32,525 nucleotides of DNA from Bacilli bacterium (lineage in GTDB: Bacteria; Bacillota_I; Bacilli_A; RF39; UBA660): NCBI GenBank assembly GCA_030531695.1, contig JAUNMV010000011.1:1-32525 (forward strand), read 5' to 3'. The notes under the pieces are model-generated. The model worked only from the letters and a program-made list of their open reading frames with translations. It ran no database searches and had not been told where the DNA came from. The translations under genes and the position numbers were made by a program. Positions 1,608 through 30,293 of this stretch are shown here, in pieces; the first letter of the stretch is position 1; each line of letters opens with the position of its first letter.

Positions 1608-3016
1608 ATGAGACCATCTATTTATATTAATATATCTATTGGTACTTGTTGTTTAATATTTCAATTAGCATTACATTTAGTTTATACATTAAAGAAGAAG
1701 ATTCCTAATATAGATAATAAACTATATAGTAGAATGCTACTATTTAATACTATTACTCTTATTTGTTTTGTTTCTTTATGTACTTTTAATTATTATAATA
1801 ATAAGCCTATAGCAACTATATTTAATAAAGTAGCTTTATTTTCTACACTCTCATGGGCTTTATTATTTGCTTTTTATATATTTATGGTTGTTGTAGAGAA
1901 GAAGACAGATATAGTAAAGTATGTTACTAAAAATGAAAAAAAGATAATCACAAAACCGTCGCGTCCAATGCGGCGGTTTTAATATTACCTCTAGATATTG
2001 ATGGTACTCCTATATCTACTCCTGGATTTATATTTTGGGATATAAATGTATTAATATTACTTATAGCAGCCTCTATATTAATTATTACTAATAGAAAGAA
2101 TATAGATAGAAAAAAATTGTTACCTTTTTATTTATGTTTTCTTACCTTTTTATGTGTTCCTCTAGTTTTAGCTTTATTTCCAGAAGTTACATTTGGATTT
2201 ATGGTTTTTACTATTATTAGTTATATTATGTATAACACTATAGAAAATCCGGATTTAAAAATGCTTAGTGAACTCACTTTAGCTAAAGATCAAGCAGATA
2301 AAGCTAATAGAGCTAAAACAGATTTCTTAGCAAGTATGTCACATGAAATTAGAACACCATTAAATGCGATTGTTGGTTTATCTCAATTAGCTCATGAAAG
2401 TAATGATATAAATAGTATAAAAGAAGATACTGAAGATATTTTACTTGCTTCACAAAACTTACTAGATATAGTTAATGGTATTATGGATATTAATGAATTG
2501 GATGCGAATAATGTTGATTTATTAGAAGGTAAATATAATATTAAAGAAGTATTAGAAGAATTAAGTAGAATGACTAGATTTAGAATAGGTAATAAAGATA
2601 TTAAATTACGTTGTAGTTTTGATGATAATTTACCTGATTATTTATTTGGTGATAGAGATAAAGTAAAAAGAATTATGTCTAACTTACTTACTAATGCAGT
2701 AAAATATACTGATAATGGATTTGTTGATTTTATAGTTGAATCTAAAAATATAAATGATATTTGTGAATTAAGAATACTTGTGAAAGATACTGGTAAAGGT
2801 ATTAGTTCTGAAAATATAGATAGTATTTTTAATAAATTCTATAGAGAAGATATGGATAAAGATAGTGATATATCGGGTACTGGATTAGGTTTATCTATTA
2901 CTAAGGGATTAGTTGAATTAATGGATGGTAAGATTACTGTTGATAGTACATTAAACTTAGGAAGTACATTTATTGTTAATATTAATCAAAAAATAGTATA
3001 TGCAACTGAAAATTGA
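1608..3016 (+). pseudogene. Third tandem histidine kinase, split by a -1 frame change (disrupted gene or programmed frameshift)
   Basis: Start ATG at 1608 follows AGGAGGGG (1596-1603). Frame one encodes the start of a multi-TM sensor like the preceding kinase (TM segments 1-3) and runs into a TAA at 1980-1982. The rest continues in the -1 frame, open from 1937 to the TGA at 3014-3016. That part has later TM segments and an intact kinase core: [37 protein letters not shown]. The second frame has no well-placed start codon of its own. Joined by a -1 slip near 1937-1943, the product would be 469 residues, close to the 480 of its neighbour. Compared with that neighbour, the region expected to hold TM segment 4 is shorter and replaced by a GC-rich hairpin, so topology would be disturbed. 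A pseudogene, an assembly error and real frameshifting are all possible. Confidence 0.6.
1937..1980 (+). other. A-AAA-AAG heptamer, 8-base spacer and GC-rich stem-loop
   Basis: In the first frame the heptamer A-AAA-AAG (1937-1943) is read as AAA AAG, the classic bacterial -1 slip site used in dnaX. Eight bases later, AAAACCGTCGC (1952-1962) pairs with GCGGCGGTTTT (1970-1980) across a 7-base loop: 11 bp with one G-U pair. A slip here moves reading into the open -1 frame of the kinase core. The stem is also flanked by A and T runs, so it could act as a terminator in either direction. Its base composition is unlike everything around it. Confidence 0.6.
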
Positions 3017-7797: not shown

Positions 7798-7825
7798 ATA
7801 GTAACTATTGAGGGGGATTATAGGT

Positions 7826-8623
7826 ATGAATAAAACTGGTATATTTCTTACCGGTGGTGGAGGAATAGGAGCTTTCCACATAGGGTTTTTTAAGGCTTTA
7901 GAAGAAGCTGGAATCAAATATGATGGTGTATATGGTAGCTCTGTTGGTGCTATGGTTGCTGGTGCTGCTACATATTTAACATCTGATGAAATGTATGATG
8001 CTTGGAGAACTTTGACATTGGAAAGTGTATTAAAAATAGATAGTAAAAAAGTTAAAGATTTAAGTGGTGCTAAAAGAACATTAATGCTTTATAAAGAGGC
8101 TTTCTTATCTTGTTGTAGAAGAGATCCACATTTATTTATAAATATTGATGATTTAAGAAAGTTAATGTATGCATCTCTTGATGGAGAAAAAATAAAAGAA
8201 TCAAAAATAGATTTTGGTATTACAACAACTGAATTACCTAGTATGAAAATGAAAAAAATATATAAAGAAGATATGAGTGTTAATCCTCTTGAATATATTT
8301 TAGCAAGTATTTACATGCCAATATTTTCTAGACAAAGAATTATCGATAATAAACATTATTTAGATTTATCTAGATTTAGAAGATATCCATTAGAAATGTT
8401 AAAAGAAAGAAAATGTAATAATATATATATAGTTAATATTGAAGCCAATAATTTAAAAAGATTACAAAAACCTATTCTTAAAAATTTTAATAATGGTGAA
8501 AAAGTTACATTTATTAATTATGAAAAAAAACCATCTATATTAGATTTTTCTTTAGAACAAGCTGAGAAAAATTTAAGAAGTGGTTATGAAACAACTATGA
8601 AAGTTTTAGAAAAAACTATATAA
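7826..8623 (+). CDS. Patatin-like phospholipase
   Basis: A 265-residue soluble protein of the patatin/RssA family, expected to hydrolyse acyl esters of lipids with a Ser-Asp dyad. It has the glycine-rich oxyanion loop GGGGIGAF (10-17) and the nucleophile elbow GSSVG with Ser39. The catalytic Asp would be Asp180 in HYLDLS, where most family members have DGG or DGA, so the Asp is kept but the loop is altered. ATG 7826 sits 9 bases after GAGGGGG; a longer frame from TTG 7808 is unlikely because it overlaps that ribosome site. It is a single gene with its own promoter and terminator. It has no signal peptide, so it acts in the cytoplasm or at the inner membrane face. Confidence 0.85.
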   Translation: MNKTGIFLTGGGGIGAFHIGFFKALEEAGIKYDGVYGSSVGAMVAGAATYLTSDEMYDAWRTLTLESVLKIDSKKVKDLSGAKRTLMLYKEAFLSCCRRDPHLFINIDDLRKLMYASLDGEKIKESKIDFGITTTELPSMKMKKIYKEDMSVNPLEYILASIYMPIFSRQRIIDNKHYLDLSRFRRYPLEMLKERKCNNIYIVNIEANNLKRLQKPILKNFNNGEKVTFINYEKKPSILDFSLEQAEKNLRSGYETTMKVLEKTI

Positions 8624-8748: not shown

Positions 8749-10095
8749 ATGAATTTTTCAGAAAATTTAAAAAGACTTAGAAAAGAAAATAATCTAAGTC
8801 AAGAAGAACTAGCTGAGAAGCTAAAAGTATCTCGTCAAAGTGTATCTAAATGGGAGAGTGGAACTGCATATCCAGAAATGGATAAGATAATTCAAATATC
8901 TAATATGTTTAATGTAGGAATAGATGAACTACTAAATAAAGATATTAAAGAAGTACAAGAAGAAAAACAAACTAAAAATAATATTAATAAGTATATTGAT
9001 GATTTTTTAAACTTTATAACTAAGTCACTTGATATGTTTCTTAATATGAAATTTAAGGATAAATGTAAACTTATTTTTGAAGAATGTTTTATTGCATTTA
9101 TGTTATTTATATTTTTCTCAATTATAGGATCATTATTTGGAAATGTATTCTTTAATGCATTTAATTTTGTTAATCAACAAGTTTTATATTTTGTTAAAAA
9201 TCTATTTGATGGAATATATGGTTTAATAACATTTGGTTTAAGTGTAATAGTAATGTTACATATATTTAAAACTAGATATTTAGATTACTATGTAGTAGTA
9301 GATAAAGAAGATTTAGATAATACAGATAATAATGAAGAAATTAAGAAAAACTTTGTTCCTGAAAAACGTGAGAAAGTTATTATTAGAGATCCTGAACATT
9401 CAGGTTATAAATTTATTAATGGTTTATTAAAAGTATTATTAGTATTAATTAAAATAAATGTAGCATTTATTTTTGTAGGATTCTGTTTTTCATTTATTGG
9501 ATTAATTGTAAGTTTTGTTTTATCTTTTGCGATTAGTAAAACTGGATTATTCTTTGTTGGAGTATTATTAAGTATTCTTTCAGGTATTGTTATTAATTTT
9601 ATTATTTTAAATATATTATTTAATTTTATACTTAGTCATAAATGTAAATGGTTATTCTTATTTATAACATTTATTGTATCTCTAGTATTATTAGGTAGTG
9701 GTATTGGCTTAGGTACTATTGGTTTTTCTAAATTTGATTTTGTAAGAGAAGAATCATATGAAGTAGAAGATACTCTTCCAATGAATGATAATAGTTTTAT
9801 TATTAATCATTATAATAGTAACTATAATTATGTAGAGTCAGATAATAGTGATATTAGAGTAGTTATGAGTTGTCCTAATACTTATACTTGTTATGTAGAA
9901 AATGAAGATAATATTATTAATATTAGAACTAATTATAAAGAAATGGAGGGAATGAAAATATTCCGTAAAGTTTTAAAAGATTTTAATAATAAAAAAATAG
10001 TTACTGATGATCATATTGAAGTAAATATTTATACTAATAAAGAGAATATAGATAGATTACAAAATAATTTTGAAGAATATATAAGAGGCGAATAA
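8749..10095 (+). CDS. XRE-family HTH regulator with membrane and extracytoplasmic domains
   Basis: 448 residues. Residues 7-60 form a Cro/CI-type helix-turn-helix (LRKENNLSQEELAEKLKVSR, then QSVSKWESG). After an acidic-lysine linker come about five to six TM helices between residues 113 and 330, broken by a charged cytoplasmic segment near 180-225. The last 115 residues lie outside the membrane and contain short beta-rich repeats around IRVVMSCPNTYTCYVEN, reminiscent of DUF4097-type adhesin domains often found next to such regulators (inference). It starts after AAAGGAGG at ideal spacing. A membrane-tethered DNA-binding protein suggests envelope-signal sensing. The 98 bases upstream, after the previous terminator, hold two GCAAC copies near 8659 and 8701 that could be operator halves, but I see no clear -35/-10 pair. 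Confidence 0.8.
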   Translation: MNFSENLKRLRKENNLSQEELAEKLKVSRQSVSKWESGTAYPEMDKIIQISNMFNVGIDELLNKDIKEVQEEKQTKNNINKYIDDFLNFITKSLDMFLNMKFKDKCKLIFEECFIAFMLFIFFSIIGSLFGNVFFNAFNFVNQQVLYFVKNLFDGIYGLITFGLSVIVMLHIFKTRYLDYYVVVDKEDLDNTDNNEEIKKNFVPEKREKVIIRDPEHSGYKFINGLLKVLLVLIKINVAFIFVGFCFSFIGLIVSFVLSFAISKTGLFFVGVLLSILSGIVINFIILNILFNFILSHKCKWLFLFITFIVSLVLLGSGIGLGTIGFSKFDFVREESYEVEDTLPMNDNSFIINHYNSNYNYVESDNSDIRVVMSCPNTYTCYVENEDNIINIRTNYKEMEGMKIFRKVLKDFNNKKIVTDDHIEVNIYTNKENIDRLQNNFEEYIRGE

Positions 10096-10111
10096 TAGTC
10101 GCCTTTTTTTT
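10086..10111 (+). terminator. Terminator after the HTH membrane gene
   Basis: AGGCGA (10086-10091) pairs with TCGCCT (10099-10104), followed by a T-run. The stem contains the last coding bases and the stop codon of the gene. Confidence 0.85.
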
Positions 10112-10167: not shown

Positions 10168-11814
10168 ATGGAAATTAAAATTAATGGTATATTTGATAAG
10201 TATAATAATACAGTTAATTTAGATAAAAAATGTAATATCTTTATTGGAGAAAATGGAGTAGGTAAAAGTACTACTATGAAGATAGTAAAATCTTTATTAT
10301 CTGGTGACTTTATAGAACTACTTAAATATTATTTTAAGAGTATAGAAATAATTGATAATGATACTCATTTAATAATTAATTATTGTGATTTATTTCCTAA
10401 ATTAGAAGATATACTAGATATTACTAATAACTTTGTTCCTAAAGATACTGAGAATAAATATTATTCAGATACTGATACTAGAATTATTAATATATATTAT
10501 AAAGACTTATGTAATATTGTTAAGGATAATAAAGATATATATAGACATCTTATTAGAACTATTATTAATGAGAATAATAACTTTTCTCATAATGCTTTTA
10601 AAAAACAATACAATGTTGAATCAAATAATTTAAGTAAAATCTCATATTCACTTATTGTTTTTTATAAATTTAGATGTGAAACATTAAAATTTAATAATAT
10701 TAAGTATCTTGATAATACTACTTTTTGTAGAAATAAATATTATGAGAATATTGATAAATTATTAGCTGAGTATAATAAAATATCATTAATATCTAATGTT
10801 AGAGAAATTGATATTAATAATGATGTTTGGACTATCCCAACACAATTTTTTAGTTCTAATTTAGAATATCGTATATTAGATAGTTATAAAAAAGAAGAAA
10901 AATATTATATTAGTAAAGTAGATAGAGGTATCAGAAATAGTGATAAGTTTGATAAGAATCATGTACATTTAACTATTCCTGAAAGAGAAAGATATTTAAA
11001 AGAATTATTTGAAAAATATGATTTAGAAGAAATTATTAATAATACAATTTATTCTAATATATATGAAAATTATGATTTATATAAAGATTTGATGGGTGAA
11101 TATAATGATGACGGTACATCTTCTATAGATATTAAAAAAGTATTATTTAAAAATTATTATGATCTAGATACTATTAAGAAATTTACTAGAGATTATTATA
11201 TAATGCTTAAAAAGATGGTTAATAGAGAATATAGTGCAGAAGAGTTAAATTTAGATTTAATTTTAGAAGATGATTTTATTATGAATAAATATTATTATTT
11301 TATGGAACCTCTTATTCCACATTATTCTTTTTATAGATATTTTATGTTAGGAACATCTAAAGATTTATTTACATATGAGACTTTAGTATTTAATAAATTT
11401 ATTCATGATAATTTAGATTATTATATGGAACATGCTGATAGTAGAGTAAAGAAATTAGATTCTTTACTTAGTGAATATTTTAAAAGTAAAAAGATATATT
11501 CTTCTCCTAATGGTTTAATTATTTCTGATGAGTTAGACTACAATAATAGATATAATTTTAAGTATTTATCTGAGGGAGAAAGAAGAGTTATTGTATTACT
11601 TATATTAAGTATTTTTAATGATAATGATGTTTTATTAATAGATGAACCTGAAACTTCTTTATCAGTTTTATGGCAACAGAGATTAATTGATGATCTACTA
11701 GATAATGGTTCAATTAAACATTTAATTGTATCTACACAATCTCCATTTATTGTGGATGATGATAAGTTAATGGAATATGTTACTTGTTTACCGGGAGATG
11801 GTGTAGATGAGTAA
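10168..11814 (+). CDS. AAA/ABC-type ATPase of a PARIS-like anti-phage pair (AriA-like)
   Basis: 548 residues, an ATPase of the RecF/OLD/AAA_15-21 group. Walker A GENGVGKST is at 27-35, an ABC-like signature LSEGERR starts near 467, Walker B VLLIDEPETSLS has Asp492-Glu493, and STQSP (522-526) takes the place of the usual TTHSP switch. The roughly 420-residue middle part is charged and rich in Tyr, Asn, Asp and Lys, with no domain I recognise; in this group it forms the helical arm. The start follows GAGGTG. The last 8 bases overlap the DUF4435 gene, as expected for AriA-AriB of PARIS, where the ATPase holds the nuclease inactive until a phage protein triggers release. An OLD-like pair of another type is the main alternative. 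Confidence 0.7.
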   Translation: MEIKINGIFDKYNNTVNLDKKCNIFIGENGVGKSTTMKIVKSLLSGDFIELLKYYFKSIEIIDNDTHLIINYCDLFPKLEDILDITNNFVPKDTENKYYSDTDTRIINIYYKDLCNIVKDNKDIYRHLIRTIINENNNFSHNAFKKQYNVESNNLSKISYSLIVFYKFRCETLKFNNIKYLDNTTFCRNKYYENIDKLLAEYNKISLISNVREIDINNDVWTIPTQFFSSNLEYRILDSYKKEEKYYISKVDRGIRNSDKFDKNHVHLTIPERERYLKELFEKYDLEEIINNTIYSNIYENYDLYKDLMGEYNDDGTSSIDIKKVLFKNYYDLDTIKKFTRDYYIMLKKMVNREYSAEELNLDLILEDDFIMNKYYYFMEPLIPHYSFYRYFMLGTSKDLFTYETLVFNKFIHDNLDYYMEHADSRVKKLDSLLSEYFKSKKIYSSPNGLIISDELDYNNRYNFKYLSEGERRVIVLLILSIFNDNDVLLIDEPETSLSVLWQQRLIDDLLDNGSIKHLIVSTQSPFIVDDDKLMEYVTCLPGDGVDE

Positions 11815-12691
11815 CTTCTATGATCAATTTAATAATGCTAGAAATAATCAACCTAATTCTAAAATGTTAATGGAATTTAATCAGAAAAGAAATTATATAG
11901 ATACAGATAATAATGTTTGTTTTGTTGAAGGACCTGATGATAAGAGATTTTATAGATTTATAAAAGGTAATGATAAATTACATAGTATACATAAAAGTGA
12001 TTATATATATTCAAATAAAAATAGTAATGAATCTCATGGTAAAAGGGGAGTATTACTAATGTATAATTATCTTTATAATAAATTCTCTTCTTATCTAGAT
12101 AAATGTATTTTTATAGTAGATCATGATTATAATGGTTTAGTAGGATATGGTGTATCTAATGAGAAGGGGATTACTGTTACTAAGAATTATGCTTTTGAAA
12201 ATTATTTTTTAGAAGATAGTAATATAGATAAGATATTTAATTATTTTAATATTAGTAATGATATAGATAATTTTAAAAAGATACTTAAAAAATATATTAT
12301 AGATGTAGGTGACTTTGTAAGAGTTAAATCTACTTTAACTAATAATAAACAAGTACATGTTAGTAGTATATTTTCTAATAATGAGATATTTACATTTAAT
12401 TTTAATAATTCAAATATTTTTAATACTAATTATATGGAAAAAGAAATTACTAATATGTTTGATGCGATAAAGAAAAATTCTAAAGCATATGATTTTTATT
12501 TAGTTAAAGCAAAAGATTATATGCATAGTTATAGATGGATTAGAGGACATGATATTTATAATTTTTTATATGAGTATTTAAAACAAATACATAATAAAGA
12601 TATTAATAATGATGATACTTATAGAGAAATAGTTAAGTTACTTGATGTAAATATTAATGTTAGAGATGGATTAGGTAATATATTAAAATAG
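11807..12691 (+). CDS. DUF4435/TOPRIM-type putative nuclease of a PARIS-like pair (AriB-like)
   Basis: 294 residues. The TOPRIM-like hallmark is visible: acidic VEGPDDKRFY with Glu41, Asp44 and Asp45, then CIFIVDHDYNG with Asp105 and Asp107 as metal ligands, followed by the family-typical YAFENYFLED. In PARIS, AriB is a TOPRIM nuclease that cleaves host tRNA after release from AriA, causing growth arrest; that role is carried over here from the family and gene order. The ribosome site GGGAG lies in the 3' end of the ATPase gene, and the ATG overlaps that gene by 8 bases, so translation is coupled. A strong 9-bp terminator starts near the stop. The pair thus forms a closed two-gene cassette between the HTH gene and tRNA-His. 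Confidence 0.7.
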   Translation: MSNFYDQFNNARNNQPNSKMLMEFNQKRNYIDTDNNVCFVEGPDDKRFYRFIKGNDKLHSIHKSDYIYSNKNSNESHGKRGVLLMYNYLYNKFSSYLDKCIFIVDHDYNGLVGYGVSNEKGITVTKNYAFENYFLEDSNIDKIFNYFNISNDIDNFKKILKKYIIDVGDFVRVKSTLTNNKQVHVSSIFSNNEIFTFNFNNSNIFNTNYMEKEITNMFDAIKKNSKAYDFYLVKAKDYMHSYRWIRGHDIYNFLYEYLKQIHNKDINNDDTYREIVKLLDVNINVRDGLGNILK

Positions 12692-12715
12692 GACAATTTG
12701 ATGTCCTATTTTTTT
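12687..12715 (+). terminator. Terminator of the defence pair
   Basis: AATAGGACA (12687-12695) pairs perfectly with TGTCCTATT (12702-12710) across a 6-base loop, followed by a T-run. Confidence 0.85.
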
Positions 12716-12756: not shown

Positions 12757-12833
12757 TGGGGCGTCATAAGAGAATCGAACTCTTGCATACTAGTGCCACA
12801 AACTAGCGTGTTAACCACTTCACCAATGGCGCC
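12757..12833 (-). tRNA. tRNA-His (anticodon GTG)
   Basis: On the minus strand a full cloverleaf can be drawn. The D stem is GTG/CAC, and the anticodon stem CTAGT/ACTAG has loop TTGTGGC with anticodon GTG. The T arm AAGAG-TTCGATT-CTCTT follows, and the 3' CCA is encoded (12757-12759). A G at -1 (12833) opposes C73, the identity element of tRNA-His. The acceptor stem has a C4-A69 mismatch (12829 against 12764) where a C-G pair would be expected. The gene has its own promoter and terminator and is transcribed toward the defence genes. Confidence 0.93.
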
Positions 12834-12890: not shown

Positions 12891-12938
12891 TTAATTTAGG
12901 CTAATAACTATACATACCTTTTTTTGACTCATAAATTA
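12891..12938 (+). promoter_or_regulatory. Possible mother-cell sigma factor (SigE/SigK-like) promoter for cotJB-cotJC
   Basis: CATACCTT (12913-12920) resembles the SigE -10 consensus CATACAnT, with TTAATTT about 15 bases upstream as a -35. A second candidate, CATAAATTA (12930-12938), fits the SigK -10 CATAnnnTA but would leave a very short leader. No good vegetative promoter is seen here. The cotJ operon of Bacillus is SigE-dependent. Confidence 0.4.
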
Positions 12939-12956
12939 AAAAGAAGGGAGATTATT

Positions 12957-13346
12957 ATGAATTTTGAAAATTATTTAAGAAATGATACTAATTTATTTAA
13001 TCCTGAAAACGGATATAATTTAGGAAATATGTTTAGTGATTTATATGATCCTTATAAAGATTATAAGCCTACAAAATTAAAAGCAAATAATAAGAAAGAA
13101 GAAATGTATTTACAATTATCTAGAATATCTTTTGCGATGCATGAGATGAATTTATATTTAGATTTGCATCCAGAAGATAGAAAGATACTACAATTATTTA
13201 ATGATTATAGAAAAATGTTTGTTGAATTAGAAAAGAAGTATGAAAGTGAATTTGGACCTTTAACTACTTGTAGTGATACTTTAGAGAAGAGTCCTTTTGG
13301 TTGGGTTACTTATTCATTTCCATTTGAGGAGGATATAGATGTTTAG
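12957..13346 (+). CDS. cotJB: Spore coat protein CotJB, with a CotJA-like N-terminal stretch
   Basis: 129 residues. The C-terminal 80 match the CotJB pattern well: a helical start, then MNLYLDLHPEDRKIL, a Lys/Glu-rich helix, ESEFGPLT and the end SPFGWVTYSFPFEED, corresponding to the family's final W/P-rich stretch. CotJB is a small inner-coat protein laid down with CotJC. The first 45 residues are not part of normal CotJB; the segment LGNMFSDLYDPYKDYKP recalls the end of CotJA (GTLW.DLYDPY), so a CotJA remnant may be fused here (inference). I placed the start at ATG 12957 after GAAGGGAG. The longer frame from TTG 12924 reads through the promoter region. The gene overlaps cotJC by 8 bases. Confidence 0.85.
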   Translation: MNFENYLRNDTNLFNPENGYNLGNMFSDLYDPYKDYKPTKLKANNKKEEMYLQLSRISFAMHEMNLYLDLHPEDRKILQLFNDYRKMFVELEKKYESEFGPLTTCSDTLEKSPFGWVTYSFPFEEDIDV

Positions 13347-13995
13347 TTATCAAAAAAGATTACAATATCCAGTTAATATTAATAAAAAAGATGTGCGAAT
13401 GGCTAAATATTTAGTTACACAATATGGTGGACCTAATGGAGAATTAGGAGCAGCTCTTAGATATTTAAATCAAAGAGTTAGTATGCCTGATAATGTAGGT
13501 AGAGCATTACTTACTGATATAGGTACTGAAGAATTAGGACATGTAGAAATGTTACAGACTATGATACATCAACTTACTAAGGATGCAACACTTGAAGAAT
13601 TAAGAGCAGTTGGACTTGACTCTAATTATGCCGAACATGGAAGTGGAATATTTCCAACAGATGCATCAGGAGTACCATTTACTGCAGCATATTTTGCGAC
13701 TACAGGGGATGCTTTAGCAGATATCTCAGAAGATATGGCAGCTGAACAAAAAGCAAGAGCTGTGTATGAAAACTTAATAGATTTAACGGATGATCCTAAT
13801 GTGATTGGACCACTATTATGGTTAAGGCAAAGAGAGATAGTTCATTATGCTAGATTTAAGGAATTATTTGAATACTATAAAAATAAAGATAGTTCTACTA
13901 GTATTAATACACCATCTAGTTTAGATATTACTAATGGAATGTTAGATAATATGAATTTTGATTTTACTAATATGATGATGAGAAGAATGTTTTAG
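13339..13995 (+). CDS. cotJC: Spore coat protein CotJC (manganese-catalase-like)
   Basis: 218 residues, close to CotJC and other non-haem Mn-catalase family proteins. A four-helix ferritin-like fold with a two-metal site is indicated by Glu35 (GELGAALRYL), Glu65 and His68 (TEELGHVE), Glu136 (MAAEQKAR) and His169 (REIVHYARF), the five-ligand pattern of Mn catalases. It may remove peroxide in the coat or act structurally. Translation is coupled to cotJB: GAGGAGG lies in the cotJB 3' end and the ATG overlaps by 8 bases. Its presence implies the lineage forms spores or descends from spore formers. The C-terminal 40 residues are Asn/Asp/Met-rich and poorly conserved. Confidence 0.92.
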   Translation: MFSYQKRLQYPVNINKKDVRMAKYLVTQYGGPNGELGAALRYLNQRVSMPDNVGRALLTDIGTEELGHVEMLQTMIHQLTKDATLEELRAVGLDSNYAEHGSGIFPTDASGVPFTAAYFATTGDALADISEDMAAEQKARAVYENLIDLTDDPNVIGPLLWLRQREIVHYARFKELFEYYKNKDSSTSINTPSSLDITNGMLDNMNFDFTNMMMRRMF

Positions 13996-29150: not shown

Positions 29151-29168
29151 CTTTTTGAGGTGAGAATG

Positions 29169-30293
29169 ATGATTTACTTAGATTATAGTGCAACAACTCC
29201 AGTTGATCCTGAAGTAATAGATACATATAGTCGTGTATGTAGAGAATTTATAGGTAATCCTAATTCATTACATAAATTAGGTGTTGAAGCTAAGAAATTA
29301 ATAGATGCATCTACTAAACAAATAGCAGATATATTAGGTGTTAAAACTAGTGAAATTATTTATACTAGTGGAGCAAGTGAAGCTAATAATACAGCTATTA
29401 AAGGTATTGCTTTAAAATATCAAAATAGAGGAAAACATATTATTACTACAGAACTTGAACATTCTTCTGTAATAGCTCCAGTTTCATATCTTACTAGTTT
29501 AGGATTTGAAGTTGATTTTGTTAAGTTAGATGAGAATGGTTTAGTTGATTTAGAAGACTTAGAAAGATTAATTAGAGATGATACTATTTTAGTTAGTATA
29601 GCTGCAGTTAACTCTGAAGTAGGAGTAGCTCAACCTATTGATAAAATAGCTGAAGTAGTAAAGAAATATCCTAAATGTTATTTCCATAGTGATATTACTC
29701 AATGTATTGGTAAACAAAGAATAGATTTAACTAATGTAGATTTAGCTAGTTTATCTGGACAAAAGTTCTTTGGCATGAAGGGTGTAGGTATTTTAATAAA
29801 GAAAGAATCTATAGTAATTGAACCATTAATTCATGGTGGTAAATCTACTACTGTATTTAGAAGTGGTACACCTGCAACTCCATTAATAGCATCTATTAGT
29901 AAAGCTATGAGACTTGCTTATGATGACTTTGATACTAAACTTAAGCAAGTAAAAGAAATACATGATTATTTAATAGATAAAATTAAAGACTTAGATATTT
30001 ATATTAATAGTAATGATTATTGTTTACCTAATATGGTAAATGTAAGTTTAAAAAACATTAAACCTGAGACAATGCAACATGCATTAGAAGAATATGATAT
30101 TTATATTTCTACACAAACAGCTTGTTCATCAGCAGAATATTCTAAAGCAGTATATGCAGTTACTCGTGATAAAGAAAAATCTCGCCATAGTATTAGAATT
30201 AGTTTAAGTTATAAGACTACAAAAGAAGAAATAGATAAGTTTGTAGGAGTATTTACTAAACTATTAAATGATTTAAATATTAGAGGAGAGTAG
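29169..30293 (+). CDS. Cysteine desulfurase (NifS/IscS family)
   Basis: 374 residues, PLP enzyme that takes sulfur from cysteine for Fe-S clusters or tRNA thiolation. It begins with the family-typical IYLDYSATTPV. The PLP-stacking His98 is in ELEHSSV, and Lys199 in LASLSGQKFFGMKG carries the PLP, with Gln in place of the common His just before it. The persulfide Cys319 is in TQTACSSAEYSK, and RISLSYKTT closes the domain. The short active loop resembles the class I IscS/NifS group. GTG 29160 is part of the GAGGTGAG ribosome site; ATG 29166 and 29169 are both usable, and 29169 gives the conserved beginning. The stop is one base before the thioredoxin-like gene. Confidence 0.93.
   Translation: MIYLDYSATTPVDPEVIDTYSRVCREFIGNPNSLHKLGVEAKKLIDASTKQIADILGVKTSEIIYTSGASEANNTAIKGIALKYQNRGKHIITTELEHSSVIAPVSYLTSLGFEVDFVKLDENGLVDLEDLERLIRDDTILVSIAAVNSEVGVAQPIDKIAEVVKKYPKCYFHSDITQCIGKQRIDLTNVDLASLSGQKFFGMKGVGILIKKESIVIEPLIHGGKSTTVFRSGTPATPLIASISKAMRLAYDDFDTKLKQVKEIHDYLIDKIKDLDIYINSNDYCLPNMVNVSLKNIKPETMQHALEEYDIYISTQTACSSAEYSKAVYAVTRDKEKSRHSIRISLSYKTTKEEIDKFVGVFTKLLNDLNIRGE

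Follow-up and report, generated by a model that had tools for sequence, protein, structure and literature searches.

Whether a pair of overlapping genes in the window (the whole 32,525-nucleotide stretch of DNA that was analysed) encodes the anti-phage system PARIS, and whether it does so in a form of its own, is the question raised by this locus, which a preliminary description had read as a PARIS-like AriA-AriB operon. PARIS is characterised by an AriA hexamer that binds three AriB and by an abortive response set off by a phage anti-restriction protein. In E. coli PARIS, a ring-forming ATPase, AriA, sequesters AriB until a phage protein releases it; AriB then forms a dimer and cuts the anticodon stem of host tRNAs (PMC12409363; PMC11455837). 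The window genes are, in our assessment, very probably a chromosomal accessory PARIS operon of a divergent branch, for which we infer a role in defence. PARIS is already known as a kind of system; the distinguishing traits of this branch are a larger sensor part and a changed catalytic residue.

Assignment of the gene pair to PARIS

The two open reading frames, their 8-base overlap and the ATPase and DUF4435 motifs of the preliminary description are all present at the positions listed here:

10086–10111, + strand: hairpin and T run after the upstream HTH gene (read from the sequence; the scan lists the palindrome on the − strand only)
10168–11814, + strand: ariA-like gene, ATG start, 548 aa; ABC/AAA_21 ATPase, candidate sensor subunit
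10246–10269, + strand: Walker A GENGVGKS, AriA residues 27–34 (from sequence; conserved in homologues)
10348–11520, + strand: enlarged middle, candidate sensor region, roughly AriA residues 61–451 (no Pfam match; Walker A–signature distance)
11566–11580, + strand: ABC signature LSEGE (LSEGERR from residue 467); LSSGE in nearly all other AriA
11629–11658, + strand: Walker B and catalytic Glu, LLIDEPETS region, residues 488–497 (LLIDEPETSLS 489–499; from sequence)
11731–11745, + strand: switch STQSP, residues 522–526, in which Gln524 replaces a near-invariant His (from alignment)
11807–11814, + strand: 8-base ariA/ariB overlap, ATGAGTAA (from sequence)
11807–12691, + strand: ariB-like gene, ATG start, 294 aa; DUF4435 Toprim nuclease, candidate effector subunit
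11924–11941, + strand: Toprim motif VEGPDD (VEGPDDKRFY from AriB residue 40); Glu41 corresponds to catalytic Glu26 of E. coli AriB
12038–12043, + strand: AriB GK motif; Lys79 corresponds to Lys64 of E. coli AriB (profile alignment)
12113–12136, + strand: Toprim metal motif IVDHDYNG, AriB residues 103–110, with Asp105 and Asp107 (alignment of 55)
12542–12553, + strand: AriB RGHD motif; Arg246 corresponds to Arg236 of E. coli AriB (profile-alignment register; G247 invariant in 55)
12690–12715, + strand: hairpin and T run just past ariB (read from the sequence; absent from the scan listing)

The two genes form a coupled pair, and their overlap suggests that the coupling is translational. The ariA gene has its own ribosome-binding site, the hairpin and T run ahead of it make it probable that ariAB also has its own promoter, and the hairpin and T run past ariB is likely a terminator.

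The published detection rule for PARIS (Rousset et al. 2022; PMC9122126) calls for an AAA_15 (score of at least 32) or AAA_21 (at least 27) ATPase adjoining a DUF4435 protein (at least 27). In the window, the ATPase scores 48.0 bits against Pfam AAA_21 (cut-off 27, E 2.4e-12), the second protein scores 49.1 bits against DUF4435 (cut-off 27, E 8.1e-13), and the genes overlap. PADLOC profiles, which the preliminary description had proposed as a check, agree with its reading: the best model for the ATPase is AriA (PDLC04164, 1.3e-15), and AriB (PDLC02983, 5.6e-18) is the only family matched by the second protein. The same models match 55 of 55 (AriA) and 53 of 55 (AriB) collected homologues. A phmmer search of the PDB with the ATPase returns AriA first (8ux9/8v45, 1.8e-14), and a profile of the AriB homologues (n = 55) finds AriB 8ux9_A at 6.5e-16. 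Matches of AriB to rotavirus VP2 in the PDB sequence search (E 0.003) were set aside as composition-driven chance.

The AlphaFold2 model of the window AriA has a mean pLDDT of 64, with the ATP-binding parts at about 80–95 and the middle mostly below 70. The model has the AriA fold together with the Walker A, signature and Walker B motifs, its middle being of low confidence, and the first 15 matches in a fold search of the PDB are all AriA chains (E 1.4e-11 to 5.6e-8). For AriB (pLDDT 81.7), which carries the catalytic Glu and Asp of the Toprim domain, the top two matches are the AriB chains 8ux9_A and 8v46_D, both weak (E 0.014 and 0.058, TM 0.38) but without a rival. Counting against the PARIS reading, identity to the solved AriA and AriB in the fold alignments is about 15%, and the TM-scores are modest (0.3–0.4). 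A switch His, usual in PARIS AriA without being defining, is replaced by Gln524 in the window and in two related loci (G433/G338).

Many PtuA and GajA profiles of PADLOC also match the window ATPase, as would be the case if the pair belonged to another ABC-ATPase defence family with a Toprim or nuclease partner (Gabija, Septu, retron PtuAB, MADS or AbiL-type) and were merely PARIS-like. Such matches are expected from the common ATPase core, however; AriA profiles score highest, the partner matches AriB alone, and in the fold search the first retron PtuA chain (1.6e-5) comes behind the 15 AriA chains. Gabija and the class 1–2 OLD proteins would bring a Toprim fused to the ATPase or a neighbouring UvrD (GajB) helicase, whereas the window ATPase ends 22 residues past the switch and is flanked by an HTH-membrane regulator and ariB. 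Septu/PtuAB would bring an HNH gene; none adjoins, and the partner is DUF4435 and of no other family. We therefore regard membership in one of these families as very improbable indeed. Profiles, the published rule, gene arrangement, fold and trees together favour PARIS over Gabija, Septu, retron and other OLD-type ATPases, and by sequence and fold the pair belongs to the PARIS family, as the preliminary description had held.

A divergent branch of AriA and AriB

Homologues were drawn from an IMG/VR scan with an AriA alignment (80 loci) and from genomes, which together gave 70 adjacent ATPase-DUF4435 pairs (counted as rows, with some loci appearing twice); the set is weighted toward viral contigs, and residue conservation was read from an alignment of 55 rows. 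The scan pattern was confined to the Walker B region, so the switch motif played no part in the selection. The earlier observation that the switch reads STQSP and lacks the usual histidine is borne out, as 53 of the 55 aligned AriA have His and the two exceptions are the window, with Gln524, and its relative in G433 (L047). The signature Ser, present in 52 of 55, is Glu in the window, and D492 and E493 are invariant. Among the 70 pairs, the combination of Gln switch and LSEGE is confined to the window's lineage, which comprises two species (the window; L047/L068 and L038). Two apparent 'IANSP' switches among the collected pairs proved to be search-pattern artefacts in proteins that carry THSP, and a near-invariant Arg at position 241 (Lys in the window) was not relied upon, as it falls in a gappy, low-confidence stretch.

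The window, L047 (G433, CAMOKF010000002.1) and L049 (G216) form one clade in both trees (AriB 100/95; AriA 99/97), with long branches that advise caution. The suggestion of a distinct branch thus holds at the level of sequence, given this clade and a switch Gln unique to the lineage among the 70 pairs. The same −8 overlap occurs in G433, G338 and G216 and in none other of the 70 pairs. Between Walker A Lys and signature Ser the window AriA spans 434 residues, where the median of 54 homologues is 332; the distance is 438 in L047 and 471 in L049, with the largest elsewhere being 401, so that the middle (sensor) region of the clade is longer by about 100 residues. Of the preliminary claim that this ATPase is long with an unrecognised middle, the length stands and a Pfam search of the middle gave no match, but the PHROG family phrog_7507, which matches 55 of 55 collected AriA, aligns with window residues 97–534.

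PARIS pairs in G219, G105 and G037, which represent other genera of this bacterial family, group in a separate clade, and PARIS has therefore probably entered the family more than once. No relatives came up when IMG/VR was searched with only the window AriA or with a close AriB alignment, nor when plasmids were searched with AriB: the branch is rare. In G216 the AriA frame (L039/L049, 385–3016) is broken at Walker A, where IFIGENGVR gives way to another frame; an assembly error or a decayed copy is the probable cause. Outside the branch, a P2-like Yersinia phage, vB_YenM_31.17, carries between its CI repressor and integrase an ATPase and an 879-bp hypothetical gene (L190:3173–5322) that look like an unannotated PARIS pair. 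ATPases of Fusobacterium phages were not accepted as PARIS, being short proteins beside hypothetical genes whose PARIS identity was not established.

The enlarged middle hints at a different trigger from the phage, the Gln switch at an altered ATP cycle. It is conceivable, if rather unlikely, that these features mark a distinct PARIS subtype of small-genome gut Bacillota, in which the enlarged sensor would answer to another trigger and the Gln switch and Glu signature would make AriA work by nucleotide binding rather than hydrolysis.

AriB residues were placed by profile alignment with the numbering of PMC12409363. In E. coli AriB, E26A is inactivating, Lys64 and Lys60 hold the anticodon loop, with K60A/K64A abolishing defence, and Arg236 is a predicted D-loop contact (PMC12409363). 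The window AriB has its catalytic residues intact, Glu41 and Asp105 being invariant and Asp107 present in 53 of 55 rows, and keeps several tRNA-contact residues, including the equivalents of Lys64 and Arg236; Lys60 and Arg28 are not retained, with about Glu75 and Pro43 in their places. E. coli AriB cleaves U36AAUCA41 of tRNA-Lys(UUU)/Thr(UGU) between positions 40 and 41. Among 25 host tRNA genes read, the exact U36AAUCA41 occurs only in tRNA-Lys(UUU) and two tRNA-Thr(UGU) genes; since UAAUCA is common as an anticodon-stem sequence, these sites are permissive and not proof.

The partial retention of tRNA contacts, together with the long tree branch on which the window AriB sits, leaves some room for an otherwise equivalent system whose effector has been retargeted, so that AriB of this branch would cleave another RNA (or DNA) than E. 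coli AriB does. We consider this somewhat unlikely, as neither the catalytic centre nor the RGH motif is damaged and the cleavage site known from E. coli recurs in the host tRNA-Lys and tRNA-Thr. A copy that has decayed or been domesticated and plays no part in defence, its Gln switch marking an ATPase that no longer cycles, is distinctly improbable: the pair retains the Walker A Lys, Walker B Asp, catalytic Glu and Toprim residues, and two species have intact copies of the two genes, at about 60% and 56% identity, which implies selection. This reading could draw on the changes of switch His to Gln and signature Ser to Glu throughout the window/G433 lineage and on the interruption of ariB in G338 at about codon 211, but the latter truncation could stem from an assembly or binning fault.

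For a functional PARIS, every biochemical step is drawn by analogy with E. coli. AriA would form an ATP-dependent ring that keeps AriB inactive; a phage protein would bind AriA and release AriB, which would dimerise and nick host tRNAs in the anticodon stem; translation would then halt, and the infected cell would release no phage.

Genomic setting

The ariAB pair is accessory. A genome of the same genus (G433) has the order ABC1-ABC2-HTH-ariA-ariB as in the window (identity 61, 72, 55, 60 and 56%), and this shared synteny argues for the contig belonging to its genome, although the bin is 5.6% contaminated. A second congener (G431) has ABC1-ABC2 directly beside tRNA-His, cotJB and catalase and lacks patatin, HTH, ariA and ariB, and a third (G434) has ABC2-HTH followed by other genes, without ariAB. 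Within the genus, 2 of 6 genomes carry DUF4435, and within the family 3 of 193, the presence/absence pattern that an accessory defence module should show. Around ariAB there is neither a prophage nor a defence island, a point against the PARIS reading. The host genome also has an N6-methylase homologue (PF02384, 3.2e-117), which would fit with a restriction system that PARIS could guard.

Two flanking genes were considered as parts of the system and rejected. The tRNA-His gene (12757–12832, − strand), a candidate island insertion site or target, lies near cotJB and catalase in five of five congeners, with no ariAB at that place, and its 3' end has no further copy within the window; it is conserved core, outside the system. 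The HTH gene (8749–10095), a candidate operon regulator, has homologues in other genera in other contexts without ariAB, and these contexts, with the hairpin and T run before ariA, make it a mere neighbour.

Several features of the surroundings deserve separate mention. An 11.5-kb block of G338, a genome of another genus, shares 98.5% identity with G433; it includes ABC1-ABC2-HTH-ariA along with most of the ariB gene and runs at both ends into serine-recombinase sequence (L038:1–1105 (G338:C36) and L038:12582–15705); it represents either a recent mobile-element transfer or a MAG assembly or binning fault. In the window, two histidine kinases (103–1545 and 2117–3016) stand ahead of the two ABC-FtsX transporters, a layout resembling antimicrobial-peptide sensing/resistance modules, and a patatin-like phospholipase (7808–8623) lies between ABC2 and HTH, where G433, G434 and G431 have none. 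The CotJB and manganese-catalase-like (CotJC type) genes by tRNA-His (12924–13995), spore coat genes in a small genome, occur in all six genomes of the genus. A class-V aminotransferase (29160–30293) that scores as SspA/DndA in PADLOC is more likely an ordinary cysteine desulfurase.

Significance and comparison with known systems

With this locus, a divergent PARIS is recorded from uncultured, small-genome gut/rumen Bacillota. It offers a natural set of variants (Gln switch, LSEGE and about 100 residues added between the two ATPase halves) with which to ask what part the ATPase cycle plays in AriB release and the sensor in the choice of trigger, and the host tRNA set yields a direct cleavage prediction.

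Gabija GajA, Septu PtuA and retron PtuA (OLD-type) share the ABC ATPase core with the window protein, but their systems have a helicase or HNH nuclease partner, or a fused Toprim, and they score lower by profile and by fold. PARIS of E. coli B185 (PDB 8ux9, 8v45–8v49) is the best PDB match by sequence for AriA and by fold for both proteins, and like the window has a two-gene operon of ATPase and DUF4435 Toprim protein with ABC motifs and Toprim catalytic residues. Its AriA has 464 aa, however, against 548 aa with an enlarged middle in the window, which also differs in its switch Gln in place of His, its LSEGE signature and an AriB without Lys60 and Arg28. The pairs of IMG/VR phage contigs and of G219, G105 and G037 share gene order and close spacing with the window, and the IMG/VR AriA (the set tested) share phrog_7507, whereas these pairs have the THSP switch, LSSGE and an AriA of about 450 aa. 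The pair in G216 (L049), at about 27–29% identity, has the normal His switch and LSSGE, yet it is the sister of the window lineage in both trees and shares its long AriA (563 aa ORF) and the identical 8-base overlap.
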